Source of the DNA: a virus
Virus record (IMG/VR): IMGVR_UViG_3300020420_000026
Location: 1 to 46,274 of that record
Direction: 5' to 3' (one strand)
Length of the DNA: 46,274 bases
Both the position numbers and the translations under genes were made by a program. Of the stretch, positions 2,619-46,083 are shown in pieces (position 1 is the stretch's first letter; every line of letters begins with the position of its first letter). Below the pieces are notes generated by a model. It saw only the letters and a program-made list of their open reading frames with translations, searched no databases and was not told where the DNA came from.

Positions 2619-5327
2619 TTATAGGGTTCCGAAGTCAAGTTGTAAGTTAGCACCATCTATAGTACCGATGTTTGTTAAGTTGTTGTTTTGACCATCTAAA
2701 GTAGCTGCTAACTGTGGTGACGTATCGTCTGCCACATTCTGGATACCAGAGTTAGATGTAATACCTAACCAAGCAGATCCATTGTAGTTTTTTAAAGTGT
2801 TAGTAGTCGTATCAAACCAAAGATCACCAGCACTAGGAGATCCCGGTGCAGATGCAGAAATCTGATACTCGTTAGCATATCTGTTTACATCATTGATTGA
2901 AGCACCAACTGTATTAACATTGCTGATAGAACCAGCTGTAGTATTTACGTTAGTGATACTTGTAGCTGTAGTATTGACACTTGTGATGTTATCAGCTACG
3001 AGTTTGATTGGGTCTTCTACAACAGTTATAGAGTTACCCATGCCACTGTGGTTTGTACAGTAGTATATAAAAGTTGTTGGCTGTGACTCAGGTACTACAA
3101 GTTGGACTTTTGCACCAGCTTGTCCTTGAGTGCCAGTAACAGTAACACCAGTATTATAAGCACTACCGCCGCTTGAGAAGCGTAGTGGATGGTTTGCGTT
3201 CGATGCGTCACTTACGTCAAATGTATATGTCCAGCCTTTGTGTAGTGTTAGTGCAGGCTTATCTACACCATCAATAATAAATTTACCTGTGGCTGCTGTA
3301 ACAGTAAAAGTAATCTCGTCTTCTATTAAGTCTGCAACTATATCAAGAGATCCATTAGAGCTGCCTGTAGTTGTTGCCGCTGTAATTAGACCTAAATCTT
3401 CTTGATATGTTATAGCACCAGATACGATAGCTACGTCATCAAGAACTGACTGAGACGGTGTAATAATAGAAAACGCACTACCTGTATAAACTTGTAGGTT
3501 GTCATTAGAACTATCAAACCATAAGTCACCTTCTTGTAAAGCTGAACCATCATTTCTAGTACTAGGTTGACTTGCAGATATAATGTATATATCAGCAAAG
3601 TTGTTAATATCTACTACGTTTGCACCAGCGTTAACAATGTTAGTAATGTTAGAAGCAACAGTGTTAACTTGTGTTGCTACAGGTACTAATCTATGAAAAC
3701 TATATGTATGTAATGTAGATGTTGACTCTACTAAAAAACCAAAGCCTGTAGGTATGGCAGCAGACACACCTGTAATAGTTACAGTATTGCCTGTCCCTGC
3801 ACCGTTTGCTATAGTTACAGTAGTGCCACTAGGCGTTAGTGTTGTGCTTGCAGCTTGTATACTTAGTATAGCTGACTGACCTGTAGCTCCTTGTGGGTTA
3901 GTTGCTGGAAAGCTGGTCTCATTAGTAATAGCTGTAAAACCACCGACCTCATCTATAAGGTCAATAATTCTAGCGTTGATAGCAGCTGTAGTAGCAACAA
4001 ATGCGTCAGAGTTAGACCAAGTAGCTCCACTAGCAATAGTTTCACTAGAGTCCTGTCTAAGGAATTTAGCTTCAGCTTCTGTTTCAGTATAGTATCTACC
4101 ATCTAGTGCACCACCTGTTAGTTCAGTTTCTGTAAAATATCTGCTGTCTGTAGATGTAGTATTAATCTCAGACAAAGTTAGCTTGTCAGATTGTAATAAT
4201 GTTTTGATTTCACCAGAAGTCTGATCTGCTGTAGCTGCTGTTTCTATACCAGCTAGCTTGCTTTGCTCTGCATCACTAAATTCATTTGTATTAGCATTTG
4301 CTTCATACGCTGTTTTTATTTCTGCATTAGTCTGGTCAGCTGTAGCACCGGCTTCTATAGCGTTCAGCTTGCTGTGGTCTGCATCTGTAAAAACATTACT
4401 ATCACTAGCAGCTTCTACGGCAGCTCTTATCTCAGCATTAGTTTGATCTGCTGTAGCCCCAGCTTCTATACCATTTAGTTTGGTATGGTCAGCGTCAGTA
4501 AACACATTACTGTCTGCTGCTGCTTCTACTGCTGCTCTGATTTCTGCGTTTGTTTGGTCTGCGGTTGCTCCTGACTCTATACCAGATAGCTTTGTTTTTT
4601 CAGCATCTTGAAAGGCATTGGTGTCAGCGTTAGCTTCATATGCAGTTTTAATCTCTGCATTAGTCTGATCTGCCGTGGCTCCTGACTCTATACCGTCAAG
4701 TTTTGTACCGTCAGCAGCTACATCTCTACCATCTACTGTACCACCTACAGTTATATTACCAGTTGTAGCTATAACTTGTGATCCAAAGTCAGGACTTATT
4801 TTAGTACCAGCTATGGCAGCTGACGCATTGACATCAGCATTTACTATAGTACCATCTACAATGTTTGCACTTGCTACTGTAATGTCAGTAGGTAGAGCAC
4901 CACTGTTCAGCTTGTCCATTGTGACAGCATCGTTTCGTATCTTAGCTGTGGTTACAGCATCGTCACGAATATCAGCAGTTTGCTCTAGTTGATTTTGCTC
5001 TTCTTGTGCAGCATACAAGAGCTGTGTAATATTATTATTTAAGTCAGCTGCTTTGACTGATGACCCCGGTGTAAATGTAGCCTTAGCACTATCTACATCA
5101 GTGTCACGAAAAATACGAATGAGGGCGGGACTGGTGGGAATATTGCCTGACGTAAAGACTACGTTACCACCACCTGTTGTAGTGTAGCCAGTAATATTGT
5201 AGTGTGTACTTGCTGTTTTAGTTGTACCATCTACTGTTACCTTTATGTCAGTTTGTTGATATGAAGGAAAGGTAAATTGCTTCGTCGCATTACCGTCCCC
5301 AGTATATTCTACGAAGGTTGTTGCCAT
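2619..5327 (-). CDS. T7 gp17-like tail fibre with embedded cupredoxin-like domain
   Basis: 902 residues. Residues 1-110 match the T7 tail-fibre N-terminal domain that attaches to the tail (VEYTGDGNATKQFTFPSYQQ, IRIFRDTD, AADLNNNITQLLYAAQEEQ). About 200-385 are tandem repeats of about 36 residues (TADQTNAEI, SNVFTDADHxKLxGIE). Two later segments carry an ASQPS/SAPGSPSAGDLWFDxxxxxLxxYxGSAW-type module. Residues about 665-775 look like a cupredoxin: THKGWTYTFD-like strand, H713 in NHPLRF, then C757, H760 and M763 in YYCTNHSGMG, the ligand pattern of a type-1 copper site. It follows the gp16-like gene as gene 17 does in T7. Fibre role is well supported; copper binding is inferred from motif only. 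Confidence 0.92.
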   Translation of the reverse strand: MATTFVEYTGDGNATKQFTFPSYQQTDIKVTVDGTTKTASTHYNITGYTTTGGGNVVFTSGNIPTSPALIRIFRDTDVDSAKATFTPGSSVKAADLNNNITQLLYAAQEEQNQLEQTADIRDDAVTTAKIRNDAVTMDKLNSGALPTDITVASANIVDGTIVNADVNASAAIAGTKISPDFGSQVIATTGNITVGGTVDGRDVAADGTKLDGIESGATADQTNAEIKTAYEANADTNAFQDAEKTKLSGIESGATADQTNAEIRAAVEAAADSNVFTDADHTKLNGIEAGATADQTNAEIRAAVEAASDSNVFTDADHSKLNAIEAGATADQTNAEIKTAYEANANTNEFSDAEQSKLAGIETAATADQTSGEIKTLLQSDKLTLSEINTTSTDSRYFTETELTGGALDGRYYTETEAEAKFLRQDSSETIASGATWSNSDAFVATTAAINARIIDLIDEVGGFTAITNETSFPATNPQGATGQSAILSIQAASTTLTPSGTTVTIANGAGTGNTVTITGVSAAIPTGFGFLVESTSTLHTYSFHRLVPVATQVNTVASNITNIVNAGANVVDINNFADIYIISASQPSTRNDGSALQEGDLWFDSSNDNLQVYTGSAFSIITPSQSVLDDVAIVSGAITYQEDLGLITAATTTGSSNGSLDIVADLIEDEITFTVTAATGKFIIDGVDKPALTLHKGWTYTFDVSDASNANHPLRFSSGGSAYNTGVTVTGTQGQAGAKVQLVVPESQPTTFIYYCTNHSGMGNSITVVEDPIKLVADNITSVNTTATSITNVNTTAGSISNVNTVGASINDVNRYANEYQISASAPGSPSAGDLWFDTTTNTLKNYNGSAWLGITSNSGIQNVADDTSPQLAATLDGQNNNLTNIGTIDGANLQLDFGTL
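3000..3330 (-). other. cupredoxin-like domain within the tail fibre
   Basis: Codons for His (3189-3191), Cys (3057-3059), His and Met give an H-x43-C-x2-H-x2-M layout. Amicyanin and related type-1 copper proteins use the same C-x2-H-x2-M spacing, and the His lies about one domain length upstream as in plastocyanins. The segment is flanked by fibre modules on both sides in the same frame. Confidence 0.65.
4190..4700 (-). repeat. tandem ~110-bp repeats in the tail fibre
   Basis: About five imperfect units, each encoding roughly 36-37 residues that end in GIExGATADQTNAEI or close variants. Unit boundaries are easiest to see at the recurring tctgcattagtctg/gtttgatctgc strings on the plus strand. 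Copy number could vary between relatives. Confidence 0.85.
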
Positions 5328-9047: not shown

Positions 9048-11468
9048 TTAAATGTTCAACTTTAGCATCGCATTGATTGCCGCAGTTGACAGTGTGTTTG
9101 GATGTAAGAAGGGTGCTTCTTTCAACTCTGGCACAGCTTCCAATAACTTATCATTGTCTTCTTTTGACAGAGTTGTTTTTTGTTTATGTGGTATATTAAC
9201 ACCGCCTATAAACTGTTGACGCTGTATGTTTGTTTCTAGCTGTCGTATAAACATCTCAGCATTTAGTCCGCTAACGCTAGGTTTAGTTGTTACCATCCAC
9301 TCTATGTTGTTATCCTTAGTTGCAACATCTAGAGTTTTAGTAGCGTTATTTTTATTAAGAAGTTTGTTTTTATCATCAACGTTGTCCAGTTCTTTACGTT
9401 CTGGTAACTCTTCTATTTTTTCTTCTTTCTTATCTACTTTAGCTATTCTTGCTTTAAATATTTCTTCTGGTGTAAGATACTCACCATCAGCATTTTTTAT
9501 AAAATTAAACCGCATGTAGTATGATGGATAGCGAGTTTTACCACCACTTCTATCATATTCACGTGCTATAGCTAAATGTGGTGCTTCGCCTGCCCACTCT
9601 TCAGAACTATATATTAGACTTGGATCTTTACCAATAGCATCTAGTGTAGCTGCTAGATCTTTTGTAGCTTGTGTATTGATTGGTAGTATTTCTTCTTTAT
9701 CAAATGTACCATCTTTTACAAGTGCTTTTGCTTCTTTTATAGCATTTGTCATAGCAGTCTTTCTAGACTGGCCACCTACAACAAGCTCTTTAAATCTTTC
9801 AGTAATATATTCTTTTGCATTGTTTCGTGTAACAATGTATTTATCAGTCTTAGCTTTATCTAGATCTCTAAGTTGTTTAGCTTCTTTTACAATAGCAATC
9901 ACTCTTTCATCCATGTTCTCAGCTTCGTCTTCTGTAAATGCACCTAGTTCTGGTGTGTTTACATACTTAGACTGTTCCTCACGTATGTCAGGATCTGCTA
10001 TTTTATTTATCATACTTTCAGTTATAGGAAGATTGTTACGTCTTCTACTTCTGATTTCAACGACGATAGCTTCATCAGCAAACTCTCTAGAAGTTATAAA
10101 GTTTTTCATAAACTCAGGTAGAGCTTCATCATCAGTAATGTTAAATCGCTTTCTAAAATCAAGAATATACGTATCAACCTCATCTGCTATCTGTCTTGGG
10201 TCTGTCATCTTAGCAATCTTAGCTTCAAACTCAACGTGGTTTGTTTCTTCCCACTTACCCATTTCTAGTTTGGTTGTTTCGTTCTCTCTTTCTATAGCTT
10301 CTTCATCATACTTGTTTGCAGCAGCTGTTAACCTTGCATGTAGTCTTTGTGCTCCTTTTGGTGCTCGTTCATCATCCATTCTCATTGCCCCACCGGGAAA
10401 CTCAAACACTTGATCTAACAAAATACGTACATCACCAGCGTCTACACCACTACCAACATCATCTAACATTGGCTCAACTATATCACCAAACCCATCAAAA
10501 GCTAATTGGCTAGCCGATGAAGCATCTAAGCCTCTTGCTTCTAGTTGAGCTTTTTTGCTAGTAATCCAACCTTCATTACCTAAGACATCATTAGCTAAAG
10601 TAGCCTTGTTCTGAAACATAGAGCTAACTTCATCATTGTCTCTGATAGCTTGAGCTTGATCTAGTAAAGCTTGCCTACCTTCTTTCCATTCGTTATATAG
10701 CTTTTGTCTCTGTTTATAGACTTCTGGTGCTACATATTTTAAAATTTCTCCATCTGTAGCATCTCTTAAACCTTGAGCACGTCTTGCACGAATCTGATTT
10801 TGAAAGATTACACCAGTATAAAAATCAAAAAGTTCGTTAAACTCATCTGTAGTAGCAGCATCTTTTAATACTCTGTTGTCAATAGCTGCAAATCCATCAT
10901 ATTTAGTTGCACTTTGAAAATAACTACCAAGATTTTTGTCAAACTCTTTAAGATTATTTCGAGAGTTTAGACCATCCTGATATGTAAAACTACCTTGACC
11001 AAAGATAGCACTAGCATCACCAGCTATTTCTCTTTCTTCTCTAGTCTTTGTAGGGTCTTTTGCATCTTTGTCAGCGTTTTCTTTAAACTCTTGTTCTTCT
11101 TTTCTTGTTTGTTTTTCGGCTGCTTCTATTTCATTTTGTTCTATCAAAAGGTCATCGTCTAAATCAGACTTTGCACCTTTATATCTTGTAAGAGTTCCTT
11201 TGTATCTATTTCTATCATCGTTAGCGTCCCGTACTTGTTGTACTATTGGCCCAACTGATTGAGCAAACTCAGCAATCTCGCCTAAAAGATTAAGTGGTCT
11301 TTCAGCTCTTTGTTTTTCGAGTTCTGCCATTTGGTTGAAGAACTCTTCTGTATCTGAAATCTGAGCATTTTGCTCCTTTATCATTGCCTCTGATAAGTCA
11401 GCTCCAGTTGCAAGATAGTTAGTGGAACCCATAGCATATGGATCCCGTTGTCTAAATGATGATGACAT
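9048..11468 (-). CDS. internal virion protein, T7 gp15-like
   Basis: 806 residues (T7 gp15: 747), lying between gp14-like and gp16-like genes. It is strongly charged and predicted helical, with Glu/Lys-rich stretches at about 85-165 and 660-715 (KARIAKVDKKEEKIEELPER). It begins at ATG 11468, overlapping the last base of the gp14-like stop. Expected role: inner core ring and periplasmic tunnel during DNA ejection. I see no enzymatic motif. Confidence 0.82.
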   Translation of the reverse strand: MSSSFRQRDPYAMGSTNYLATGADLSEAMIKEQNAQISDTEEFFNQMAELEKQRAERPLNLLGEIAEFAQSVGPIVQQVRDANDDRNRYKGTLTRYKGAKSDLDDDLLIEQNEIEAAEKQTRKEEQEFKENADKDAKDPTKTREEREIAGDASAIFGQGSFTYQDGLNSRNNLKEFDKNLGSYFQSATKYDGFAAIDNRVLKDAATTDEFNELFDFYTGVIFQNQIRARRAQGLRDATDGEILKYVAPEVYKQRQKLYNEWKEGRQALLDQAQAIRDNDEVSSMFQNKATLANDVLGNEGWITSKKAQLEARGLDASSASQLAFDGFGDIVEPMLDDVGSGVDAGDVRILLDQVFEFPGGAMRMDDERAPKGAQRLHARLTAAANKYDEEAIERENETTKLEMGKWEETNHVEFEAKIAKMTDPRQIADEVDTYILDFRKRFNITDDEALPEFMKNFITSREFADEAIVVEIRSRRRNNLPITESMINKIADPDIREEQSKYVNTPELGAFTEDEAENMDERVIAIVKEAKQLRDLDKAKTDKYIVTRNNAKEYITERFKELVVGGQSRKTAMTNAIKEAKALVKDGTFDKEEILPINTQATKDLAATLDAIGKDPSLIYSSEEWAGEAPHLAIAREYDRSGGKTRYPSYYMRFNFIKNADGEYLTPEEIFKARIAKVDKKEEKIEELPERKELDNVDDKNKLLNKNNATKTLDVATKDNNIEWMVTTKPSVSGLNAEMFIRQLETNIQRQQFIGGVNIPHKQKTTLSKEDNDKLLEAVPELKEAPFLHPNTLSTAAINAMLKLNI

Positions 11469-23705: not shown

Positions 23706-24387
23706 GTTCAAAGAACGCTGGCATACGAGCTGCTTTTGTGTCGGCAAACTGTGGTGCTTTGCCTTCATACATCAACCGGTCGCTCGCATCTAGCCAGAAT
23801 GATTTGTCTAAGTGTTTGTCCGGTGAAGTTTTTAGGGGTTGTAGTACCCAAGATATAGTTGCCTTCCGAAGCTTATCCAAGCTAGAGCTAGGACGAAGAC
23901 CAAGCTCGGCACAAACCAAGCTATTAGTCGCCACGTGAATCTGTTCGTCTCTGGATATATCAGCTGATACTGTTCTAAGAGCTGCATCACCAAGAAAACG
24001 AAACATAGGCAATAAAACAAAGAATATAGCTCGCTCGGCCACGAGGGCTTTTGCGATAGTGTGGTCAGGGTGTTGTATCCAAGCATCTCTTAATCGTATC
24101 GCCTCCATTTCAGCAATGGGATCAGCCCCATGGGATTCAACAATGAAGCCAAGAGCGAGATCATGCTTAATCTCATCTTTAACGTTTGACTCAAGAAGTG
24201 TCCTCGCTGACTGCGGGACTTCTTTCTCCAAGCCTTGTGTAATAAATTCTCCAACTGGTAGCTCCATATGACGTATTGCGAGAGCACGCTTGATGGTTTC
24301 TTCAGCACCAGATCTTACCTCCCCTTTGGTGGGTTTTACGGGAGTCCATGTTCTTTTCCTTTCTAATAATTTTTCGTATGGGTTCAT
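23674..24387 (-). CDS. nrdB: ribonucleotide reductase small (beta) subunit, short cyanophage type
   Basis: 237 residues of ferritin-like helices. E72-I-K-H75, E118 and E148-Q-I-H151 match the metal ligands of class I RNR beta subunits. The residue four after H75, which is the radical Tyr in E. coli NrdB, is Leu79, so the classical tyrosyl radical is absent. P-SSP7-type cyanophage RNRs were once called class II and later reassigned to class I with such an unusual small subunit, and this gene fits that picture. It overlaps the alpha gene by four bases (ATGA). It supplies dNTPs with the alpha subunit. Confidence 0.82.
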   Translation of the reverse strand: MNPYEKLLERKRTWTPVKPTKGEVRSGAEETIKRALAIRHMELPVGEFITQGLEKEVPQSARTLLESNVKDEIKHDLALGFIVESHGADPIAEMEAIRLRDAWIQHPDHTIAKALVAERAIFFVLLPMFRFLGDAALRTVSADISRDEQIHVATNSLVCAELGLRPSSSLDKLRKATISWVLQPLKTSPDKHLDKSFWLDASDRLMYEGKAPQFADTKAARMPAFFEHANTNLPQYA

Positions 24388-25757
24388 TGTTCGCAGTCAC
24401 ATTTGATTTTGTTGTCAAGAATACCATCCAAATAATCCTGTATGTCGGTATCCCCAAGTGCTGCGTAAGCGTCAGACTTATCTTGGACATCGCCCATAAC
24501 TTGTAATGAATAGTACAAAGAGGTTTGTGAACTTCCAAGCCACTCCTCTATAAATGCTTCATCATATCGTACAACATCACTCCAAGAGTTGAAGCTGTAT
24601 CCATGAAGCAATCCTGTCCTATCGAGCATTGTCATAATTTCGTCTGCTACACGCTTGTATGCGTCCCATCCTACTTCACTTGCAATCTCAACGTTACCGT
24701 AGTTGACTCTTTCTACTCCGAACTCGCCAGAGTCTCTGTCAACCATTCTAGCTATTGGTGGTGCTATCTCGGGTGTGCATGTAAAGCCGTCTAGGTCTCT
24801 ACTGCGATAGCTGCAACTGGCAGTGGGTGCAATAGCGAACGCCCTTACCATGTTATGTTCTCTTGCAATCTGAGCTGCTTCAAAGATTGCATTGTTTAGT
24901 GCCCAAGCGGCACAGCCTGCTTCGTTGTTTGCGGAGTGGCCAAGGTTTACCAAGCGGAGTGCCTCTCCGAATTTCTCGTACGTGATGTTATACTTTCTGA
25001 GGAAGTTGGCAAGACCGAGCACTCCAAGCCCCACTTGTCTGTCAACTTCTGGGGTAAGGTACTCTCCAGATTCTCCAACACCTGTCCGGCCATGGAGATC
25101 ACACAACTCGGACATACCTGTAACGAAAGCCTCTTGTAAATCGTCGAGTGTACAGGCACCGAGATTGACATGCTGTAACAAGCAAGTCCCACGTGAGGGC
25201 AAGTATACCTCAAGACAGACGTTCCCATAGATACGCTCCCCGGATTCGGTGTATTTGATTTTGTTGAGCCAGATGTCTCCTGATTTGATTCCATAAAGTA
25301 AAGCGTCCTTAACGTCTTGTTCTGCAAACTTCCACATGTCATCGTCAATGTCGATGCAACGCTTGACCCAAGGCAGTTCTGATCTGGAAGCTGTAATAAA
25401 GTCCACCGCATCTGGGTGGCATAGGTCTAGGTGCAATACGATAGCACCATTCTTGTAAGCTCCACCTCTTCTCAAGGTTTCATTTAGAGCTGAATATATT
25501 TTGCCGAAGCTGACTGGGCCAGTGGCCACAAGTCCTTTGTCATTTTCATGACCGGCTGGTCTAAGCTTAGATAGGTGGATTGCACAGCCTGCACCAAATC
25601 TTAGTGCGTGACTTGCGAATCTCCAGCTAGCTTCGATGCCGTTGTCCCCTTCCATGCTGTCTTCAACAACGAAGGTTGTGCATGATACAGGTAGTCTTGA
25701 TTCAGGATCGTCGATCCAAGACTGTACCCGTCCAGTGCGGGAGATTAAGTTAGACAT
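24384..25757 (-). CDS. nrdA: ribonucleotide reductase large (alpha) subunit, short class I-like
   Basis: 457 residues, much shorter than typical NrdA and without an N-terminal ATP cone. Key residues are visible: C26 (PVSCTTF), N179-V-C181-L-E183 with the thiyl Cys, C192 (GTCLL), the adjacent Tyr pair Y415-Y416 used for radical transfer in class I, and a C-terminal C453-x-C455 for re-reduction. The Tyr pair and the neighbouring beta gene argue for class I and not class II. The missing ATP cone suggests loss of overall activity control by dATP. It follows gene 6-like exonuclease, the usual cyanopodovirus place. Confidence 0.9.
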   Translation of the reverse strand: MSNLISRTGRVQSWIDDPESRLPVSCTTFVVEDSMEGDNGIEASWRFASHALRFGAGCAIHLSKLRPAGHENDKGLVATGPVSFGKIYSALNETLRRGGAYKNGAIVLHLDLCHPDAVDFITASRSELPWVKRCIDIDDDMWKFAEQDVKDALLYGIKSGDIWLNKIKYTESGERIYGNVCLEVYLPSRGTCLLQHVNLGACTLDDLQEAFVTGMSELCDLHGRTGVGESGEYLTPEVDRQVGLGVLGLANFLRKYNITYEKFGEALRLVNLGHSANNEAGCAAWALNNAIFEAAQIAREHNMVRAFAIAPTASCSYRSRDLDGFTCTPEIAPPIARMVDRDSGEFGVERVNYGNVEIASEVGWDAYKRVADEIMTMLDRTGLLHGYSFNSWSDVVRYDEAFIEEWLGSSQTSLYYSLQVMGDVQDKSDAYAALGDTDIQDYLDGILDNKIKCDCEQ

Positions 25758-34780: not shown

Positions 34781-35677
34781 TTAGTTTTTGTTGTATCTGT
34801 CAAGTAGCTTTGTGTAAGGAGCTTTGTTTGACTCTATAAAAGCATTATAGTCCATTTCTTTGTTGTTGTAAAGGTCTAGTAACTCTTTAAGAAACTTGTT
34901 TTCATCTGCTGATATACCTACAACTCTGCCTGACTTAGAACCCTTAGCTTTAGCTGGTGCTTTCTTGGCTGGTACTAGCTTCTTGGCTACAGCCTTGACT
35001 GCTGGTGCTGGCTGCTTTGCTGCTGGTGCTTTCATAGCTGCTTCTGCATCTTTGATTGCTTGGTTGATAGCTGCCTGTTCTTTGGCTCTGTCCTCTGGTG
35101 ATGTAGAGAAATCATATACTGGTAGTGATGTTGTCATGGTGGTAATAATGAATGATGGTTTACGTGATGGTATGCGTAGATAGTTTGTAGCTAGCCACGG
35201 CTTGGTGTTGAGGTAGCGTTTGTACGCTGTGATAGTGTCGATAGATGTATCGAACTTGATGTGCTCTGGCATGGCACGAGTAAACTCTGTGACCTTGTGT
35301 GATGCAAGTGATAGGAACTCGTCAGGGAATGAGGTGTGGTATATCATCTCTGCCTGACTGATAACGTCAAAGCAGGTATGCACCTTGTTGTAGCGAGCTT
35401 GATACTCATGACACAAAGCATAGCCATGTCGTATGAGCCATGCAAGATTGTACTGGTTGGCGGCAGCCCAGATAGTGCAAGGGTGTGACCGAAATGCACC
35501 ACGCTTGGTAGCATAGGGTGTGCCGTCCTTCTTGTATAACTTGCCCACACCATAATACCAATCGCTGTATATGATAGCAAGCATCTGGCAAGTCTCGAGT
35601 GGCATCTTGACTATGTGCTTGTCGGGTAGGTTGCGAGCCGATTGTATCGGGCAGGGATCTGTTACAAAGATGTTCAT
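34781..35677 (-). CDS. conserved phage protein with Ala/Lys/Pro-rich linker and C-terminal domain
   Basis: 298 residues from ATG 35677. Residues 1-180 (MNIFVTDPCPIQSARNLPDK, HIVKMPLETCQMLAI, HPCTIWAAANQYNLAWLIRH) match a phage family of unknown function with the pattern DP...A..L.DKH..KM..E..QML. Residues about 190-225 form an acidic start; 225-255 is a histone-like APAAKQPAPAVKAVAKK linker; 260-298 is a small C-terminal domain. An ATG between the parts could start a separate protein, but no ribosome binding site is seen. The predicted promoter places transcription start at the ATG, which would make the mRNA leaderless. Confidence 0.72.
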   Translation of the reverse strand: MNIFVTDPCPIQSARNLPDKHIVKMPLETCQMLAIIYSDWYYGVGKLYKKDGTPYATKRGAFRSHPCTIWAAANQYNLAWLIRHGYALCHEYQARYNKVHTCFDVISQAEMIYHTSFPDEFLSLASHKVTEFTRAMPEHIKFDTSIDTITAYKRYLNTKPWLATNYLRIPSRKPSFIITTMTTSLPVYDFSTSPEDRAKEQAAINQAIKDAEAAMKAPAAKQPAPAVKAVAKKLVPAKKAPAKAKGSKSGRVVGISADENKFLKELLDLYNNKEMDYNAFIESNKAPYTKLLDRYNKN

Positions 35678-35683
35678 ATCTAT

Positions 35684-35712
35684 ATTATAGTTCGGGTTTT
35701 TGATTCCGTCAA
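35684..35712 (-). promoter_or_regulatory. sigma70 promoter (TTGACG-N17-TATAAT) with no room for a leader
   Basis: Minus strand: TTGACG at 35712-35707, 17 bases, TATAAT at 35689-35684. Only six bases separate the -10 box from the ATG at 35677, so the first transcribed base would be at or next to the A of the start codon. It lies between the tRNA-Asp gene and the MNIFVTDPC gene. Confidence 0.75.
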
Positions 35713-35733
35713 CGAAATGTGTTGAAATCAAAA

Positions 35734-35805
35734 CGATTCTACGGGGAGTCGAACCCCGACCATGTCCGTGACAGGGACACGTTCTAACCATTAAACTATA
35801 GAATC
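35734..35805 (-). tRNA. tRNA-Asp (anticodon GTC)
   Basis: 72 bases that fold fully: acceptor GATTCTA/TAGAATC, a short D stem GTT/AAC with AATGGTTAG loop, anticodon stem TGTCC/GGACA with loop CTGTCAC (anticodon GTC), variable TGGT, T stem CGGGG/CCCCG with loop TTCGACT, discriminator G. CCA is not encoded. It is in the same direction as all genes. A single tRNA gene in an early region is unusual for a T7-like phage. Confidence 0.93.
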
Positions 35806-45465: not shown

Positions 45466-46083
45466 TTATTTTTCTAAATTTGAATATAACCAACCCGTCA
45501 TCAAATATTTAGTTTGTAGGGGTGGATAACCTTGATGTAAATATGTCCAAGTTGCTGGAAATATTATAACTCTTCCAGCTCTCGGTGAAATTTGATTTCC
45601 GTTATAAAACTGTGTCCAGCCTTCATCAACATCATTTAAATATAAAATATATGTTAACTCTCTTGTTTTTTCACTATCGTTAATAGCATCATGATGCCAA
45701 ACATAACCTTTACCGGGATCGGTTTTTTGTATTTGATAACCAGTATCTGTTATATGTGATCTAGTTGGAAAAAATTGATATTTAAGTTTGTCAGTAAAAT
45801 TTATAAAATTATGTTTAGAGTTTAAATGTTCGTAATATTCTTCAAAAACAGAACTAATAAGTTTGAAAAACAAAGTATCTTCTTTTTTCCAATCTGGAAA
45901 ATTAGAAATTGCTAAATCTTTACTATTTTTTGTGTTAAGATCGAGACCCTTACCTGTAATACCTTGAGATGCTTTGTCAATATTTTTTTCAAATTTATTT
46001 ATAATAGCCTTACATTTTTGTTTAGACAGTTTATTATCTACACAGAAAATGTAAGGGTCAGTGATTATGGTGGAATCAATCAT
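45466..46083 (-). CDS. 2OG-Fe(II) oxygenase-like protein 5
   Basis: 205 residues resembling PKHD/prolyl-hydroxylase-type oxygenases: GYVWH130-H-D132-AIN, ELTYILYLNDVDEGWTQFYN, GRVIIFPATWTYLH183-QGYPP, and QTK192-YLMTGWLY. HxD...H is complete, with Lys at the 2OG-carboxylate position. It directly follows a fibre gene (TAATG overlap), so a fibre subunit is a plausible substrate. It is richer in Lys, Asn, Ile and A+T than its neighbours, which may signal recent acquisition. Confidence 0.83.
   Translation of the reverse strand: MIDSTIITDPYIFCVDNKLSKQKCKAIINKFEKNIDKASQGITGKGLDLNTKNSKDLAISNFPDWKKEDTLFFKLISSVFEEYYEHLNSKHNFINFTDKLKYQFFPTRSHITDTGYQIQKTDPGKGYVWHHDAINDSEKTRELTYILYLNDVDEGWTQFYNGNQISPRAGRVIIFPATWTYLHQGYPPLQTKYLMTGWLYSNLEK

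Follow-up and report, generated by a model that had tools for sequence, protein, structure and literature searches.

Does a phage tail fibre carry a type-1 copper site, and what would such a site do on a virion? To our knowledge, cupredoxins act as electron carriers and enzyme domains and are not known as parts of phage particles. The question is raised by a tail fibre gene in IMG/VR virus record IMGVR_UViG_3300020420_000026, of which we analysed a stretch of 46,274 nucleotides (the window). The original prediction, made from this sequence alone, had placed a cupredoxin-like domain inside the fibre. We searched open-licence PMC papers for cupredoxins or copper binding in phages and their tails and found no description of this domain. 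In one paper, the only copper-binding motifs mentioned belong to a viral NirK enzyme (PMC8115048), and a paper on the methylophage Melnitz did not mention the domain (PMC9004378).

The tail fibre gene and its genome

We recognised RNA polymerase, DNA polymerase A, primase-helicase, and head-tail connector genes of a T7-like phage genome in the window, along with ORFs for nozzle, tail tube, and internal virion proteins. The capsid protein shares about 70-75% identity with its counterparts in Synechococcus and Prochlorococcus podoviruses, and the host is therefore probably a marine cyanobacterium. The fibre gene has the following layout:

2619..5327, minus strand: T7-type (gp17-like) tail fibre gene, 902 aa (ORF, Pfam PF03906, PHROG tail fibre families)
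4938..5321, minus strand: Phage_T7_tail domain, N-terminal, for virion attachment, residues 3-130 (Pfam PF03906, E 3.6e-10)
4203..4715, minus strand: fibre repeat region of GIESGATADQTNAEI units, residues ~205-375 (translation; match to the P-SCSP1u fibre protein, 8i4m)
3444..3665, minus strand: first coil and GDLWFD module, upstream of the insert, residues ~555-628 (translation)
3009..3323, minus strand: predicted cupredoxin domain, inserted cassette, residues ~669-773 (AlphaFold2, Foldseek against the PDB, profile search, gap against L377 and L363)
2766..2996, minus strand: second coil (ITSVNTTATSITNVNT) and GDLWFD module, downstream of the insert, residues ~778-854 (kept whether or not a fibre has the cupredoxin)

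The ORF begins with ATG at 5327, and its product matched tail fibre PHROGs and the fibre protein of cyanophage P-SCSP1u (8i4m, 18 chains). The N-terminus scored 40.2 bits against PF03906, above the curated cut-off of 25.2, indicating a T7-type fibre. The gp17 N-terminus and the fibre repeats of the original prediction were thus both recovered, the former by PF03906 and the latter as GIESGATADQTNAEI units in the translation. The GDLWFD-type module occurs twice, once before the insert and in similar form after it. The N-terminal domain and repeats are shared with the fibres P-SSP7 gp17 and P-SCSP1u gp28, and no match to the window cupredoxin was seen in P-SCSP1u (8i4m). The S-TIP37 fibre shares the C-terminal shaft modules but has no cupredoxin.

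Residues ~669-773 are predicted to form a cupredoxin domain

We built two alignments of the domain, one of close relatives only (A1) and one of 44 diverse relatives with 31-95% identity to the window member (A2). AlphaFold2 with A1 gave pLDDT values above 90 at most positions of residues ~670-773. With A2, the 105-residue domain was modelled as an all-beta sandwich of nine strands (mean pLDDT 94.7, pTM 0.88). In a Foldseek search of the PDB, the top ranks were held by copper nitrite reductase (2dv6, the best match), rusticyanin, multicopper oxidases/laccase, pseudoazurin, and amicyanin (TM 0.60 in both directions), and plastocyanin was also matched. This list also contained a small number of beta sandwiches without copper (SO1698, titin Ig), so the modelled fold by itself would not be proof of a cupredoxin.

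We then compared the A2 profile with the PDB using no structural information. The best match was again copper nitrite reductase (9cck, E 7.5e-5), followed by plastocyanins (9.5e-4 and weaker), and in both alignments the first His, the Cys-His-Met motif, and the Tyr before it were in register. Amicyanin ranked below these (E 0.18-0.34) and is not the closest cupredoxin. The diverse alignment was needed, as the A1 profile gave only chance matches to the PDB. The A2 profile search found no phage chain carrying the domain in the PDB, and an NCBIfam search returned nothing. Pfam Copper-bind (PF00127) matched 11 of the 44 A2 members (best E 4.3e-5); the window member itself did not reach the cut-off, its sequence being too diverged. 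Four A2 relatives matched PF25489 (At5g54830-like domain, best 1.9e-5), suggesting a connection with a domain of plant proteins.

The idea of a cupredoxin-like domain in a T7-type fibre was upheld by the predicted beta sandwich, whose best PDB matches are mostly cupredoxins, by the profile homology to nitrite reductase and plastocyanin, and by the conserved ligands described below. On the model and the alignments, residues ~669-773 almost certainly form a cupredoxin domain with an intact predicted type-1 site.

The predicted copper ligands are conserved

The predicted ligands and an invariant neighbour are encoded as follows:

3189..3191, minus strand: His713 codon, predicted copper ligand 1 (97% of 75 non-redundant copies; 44/44 in A2)
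3063..3065, minus strand: Tyr755 codon, invariant, two residues before the ligand Cys (copy alignments)
3057..3059, minus strand: Cys757 codon, predicted copper ligand 2 (100% of aligned copies; TGT and TGC both used)
3048..3050, minus strand: His760 codon, predicted copper ligand 3 (100% of aligned copies; CAC and CAT both used)
3039..3041, minus strand: Met763 codon, predicted axial copper ligand (100% of aligned copies)

Translation confirmed the four ligands at the residues originally named, within NHPLRF and YYCTNHSGMG, on the minus strand, which had gone unstated. Cys757 is the sole cysteine of the 902-aa fibre. In the model, the first His lies just before a strand, the Cys at a strand end, and the second His and the Met in the loop preceding the last strand. 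We found the C-x2-H-x2-M pattern a single time across the main window ORFs, and 20,000 shuffles of the fibre protein never produced it. A chance motif was ruled out by this result together with the near-full conservation.

An iterative search of 340 loci yielded 367 domain copies, and 360 of them carried H/C/H/M; the exceptions included alignments that ended early. Because some capture patterns contained ligand residues, we counted separately the copies that held a ligand-free pattern. All four ligands were kept in 250/250 such copies (25/25 at 70% non-redundancy), showing that the ligand positions do not vary freely among homologues. In A2, the only invariant columns were H713, Y755, C757, H760, and M763. 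Both synonymous codon forms occur at each His, Cys, and Tyr position, and the invariance is therefore not just recent ancestry. The domain-wide dN/dS was 0.12, no lower than that of the flanks, and did not separate the domain from them.

Copies that have lost the site were also found. In the T4-like cyanophages S-RIM2 and Syn30, the gp7-like wedge protein has two cupredoxin-like domains in tandem (L095, ~residues 500-620; L096, ~490-615); the first copy has all ligands, and the second has lost the Cys, second His, and Met together. The same three residues are likewise lost together in one cellular copy (L413). The fold can thus exist without ligands, yet 360/367 copies keep all four, indicating a metal function. 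The set Cys-His-His-Met in a cupredoxin fold is that of type-1 copper, and Met coordinates Zn or Fe poorly. Because the ligands are conserved, the metal-free alternative in the original prediction, a fold kept for structure alone, is disfavoured at the sequence level. We consider it likely that the virion binds a metal, most probably copper, at this site.

Comparison with known copper and metal-binding proteins

The fibre domain shares its fold, ligand order, and the Tyr before the Cys with amicyanin, plastocyanin, and pseudoazurin (PF00127). These small type-1 copper proteins are free soluble carriers, whereas the fibre domain is embedded in a phage fibre, has ~20% identity to them, and has no known redox partner. 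In plastocyanin and azurin, the first ligand His is usually followed by Asn, whereas the fibre domain has His-Pro. This His-Pro resembles the first His of the multicopper oxidase motif HPxHxH. The fibre loop CTNHSGM has the same seven-residue length and C-x2-H-x2-M spacing as CTPHPFM, quoted in the title of 2vmj, which we take to be the amicyanin loop.

Copper nitrite reductase is the best match in both fold and profile. Nitrite reductase and multicopper oxidases, however, have at least two cupredoxin domains and extra His residues, whereas the fibre has a single domain, eight His in total, and no HxH. A multicopper oxidase was ruled out, as the HxH pairs for a type-2/3 copper centre are absent, and the domain itself is not an oxidase. 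An auxiliary plastocyanin gene was also ruled out, since the domain lies inside a fibre bearing a T7 N-terminus.

Tail fibres that hold the transition metal iron through HxH motifs have been described for T4 gp37 and Alteromonas phage R22Y, leading to the 'Ferrojan Horse' proposal (PMC11705849). No two His lie two residues apart in the window fibre, which therefore lacks the HxH motif of that proposal. The iron fibres differ in fold, metal, and ligands; the T4 iron was seen by crystallography, whereas the window copper site is predicted from sequence. A homologous cupredoxin with the same ligands is present in T4-like cyanophages, in their gp9-like and gp7-like baseplate proteins (PHROG 677, 708, 32294). 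These proteins occupy a different virion position from the fibre, and some have a second, ligand-less copy.

The domain is inserted as a cassette in the fibre shaft

We used the C-terminal shaft (residues 777-902) as a query. Among the 77 relatives with enough upstream sequence, the cupredoxin was present upstream in 68 and absent in 9. A full-length fibre, L377, conserves both sides of the site and lacks the domain. Its junction reads EDLGLITNAVNTGSGNNSVNTVGANITN-VNLVGGSITNVN, compared with EDLGLITAATTTGSSNGSLDIVADLIED-domain-IKLVADNITSVNT in the window. L363 agrees with L377, having matching flanks without the domain. Because these two fibres share the flanks, and because the P-SSP7 and S-TIP37 fibres are also without a cupredoxin, the sequence comparison indicates that the domain is an in-frame cassette between coil repeats of the shaft and not a C-terminal receptor tip.

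Distribution in phages and cells

We searched 50,697 phage records and obtained 354 matches at E up to 10, all from cyanophages, pelagiphages, methylophages, or marine or unnamed records. Among named records, the module thus appears restricted to marine phages. Its carriers are podoviruses and T4-like phages with cyanobacteria, SAR11, and OM43 as hosts. The genes holding the domain encode tail fibres, gp9-like connectors, baseplate wedges, tail spikes, and further virion proteins, or are unannotated neighbours of such genes; the first four of these categories also came up in PHROGs. Among isolates, P-SSM4 and S-TIM5 have copies in virion proteins. Two viral contigs (L186 and L213) have two cupredoxin copies, in tandem or at separate places. 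In podoviruses and T4-like phages alike, selection seems to maintain an intact type-1 ligand set in virion proteins, and the virions of many unrelated marine phages probably carry copper sites. A viral match to a plastocyanin-like profile should accordingly be read with caution, since it may mark a tail protein and not an auxiliary metabolic gene. The marine restriction suggests a tie to ocean copper chemistry or to surface features common to marine hosts.

The domain was not matched in a plasmid search, and a scan of genome contigs gave one verrucomicrobial match. In Verrucomicrobia, the phylum reached through L082, the domain was present in 8 of 195 genomes, and some of the proteins looked secreted. 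Two such secreted-looking proteins (L414 and L416) have the same domain with all four ligands. These bacterial proteins may represent a cellular source or a recipient of the domain.

Possible roles of the predicted copper site

Taken as a whole, it is reasonably probable that the cupredoxin cassette with its type-1 site is a copper-holding adhesion or docking knob on the fibre shaft; whether adhesion or docking, rather than redox chemistry, is its main role is close to an even call. Each fibre chain would bind one copper ion, and three knobs holding copper would project sideways from every trimeric fibre. With six fibre trimers per particle, the number in T7 and the one that fits the 18 chains of 8i4m, a virion would have about 18. 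Copper would lock the C-terminal loop, and the exposed ligand histidine with its surrounding loops would be presented as an adhesion or docking surface. This face may act in adsorption to the host envelope, as the gene context suggests. Because fibres presumably fold in a copper-poor cytosol, copper loading would probably occur after lysis or at the cell surface.

The metal site could instead stiffen a beta sandwich that serves the shaft as a spacer or decoration and makes no host contact. Ig-like domains decorate other phages, and the position of the cassette between coil modules and away from the C-terminal tip, its varied positions in baseplate, fibre, and head-associated proteins, and the fibres that manage without it all fit a structural staple. 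A pure spacer, however, would not need exact retention of four ligands while most other residues change, and ligand-less copies of the fold exist; we regard this role as rather unlikely. The presumed folding of the fibre in a copper-poor cytosol would also suit a site that holds Zn, Fe, or Ni, or that is mostly empty in nature, and sequence cannot reveal the identity of a metal. The ligand set is nevertheless that of type-1 copper and its Met suits Zn or Fe poorly, making another metal or an empty site quite unlikely.

Two further possibilities give the copper an active part in infection. By analogy with the iron-holding HxH fibres, host copper-uptake or copper-binding surface proteins might recognise virion copper as a Trojan horse. 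The complete Cu ligand set on the fibre, the existence of metal-holding fibres and of such a proposal for iron (PMC11705849), and the marine-only occurrence among named phage records are in line with this. But no host receptor is known, the carriers infect cyanobacteria, SAR11, and OM43, whose surfaces differ, and the domain sits in baseplate proteins and not in fibres alone, so copper recognition of this kind seems improbable. The site might alternatively cycle between Cu(I) and Cu(II), triggering a change in the fibre or exchanging electrons with envelope redox proteins, as its ligand set and its loop length resemble those of amicyanin, an electron-transfer protein. No redox partner gene was recognised among the window ORFs scanned, the domain is isolated on an extracellular fibre, and its annotated contexts are structural; redox sensing or electron transfer is accordingly very unlikely, and we favour the docking knob over a domain that transfers electrons on its own. 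In its broadest form, the idea would be that type-1 copper is present in stoichiometric amounts on the fibres and baseplates of several unrelated marine phage lineages and takes an active part in their infections, through docking to host copper-handling surface proteins or a Cu redox trigger. We see this as a long shot. If this were true, marine viruses would together make up a biological pool of copper ligands. Metal use by phages in infection, so far a question about iron, becomes directly testable for copper.

Other genes in the window

Several other window ORFs drew our attention. An 806-aa protein (9048-11468, minus strand) at the internal virion protein position had no PHROG or Pfam match. 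A ribonucleotide reductase-like protein of 457 aa (24384-25757, minus strand) matched the barrel domain profile in its first part only. A pyrimidine dimer DNA glycosylase domain (34781-35791, minus strand; PF03013, 4.1e-14) would suit a phage from sunlit waters. A 2OG-Fe(II) oxygenase-like protein (45466-46083, minus strand; PF13640, 8.1e-14) is encoded at the genome end.
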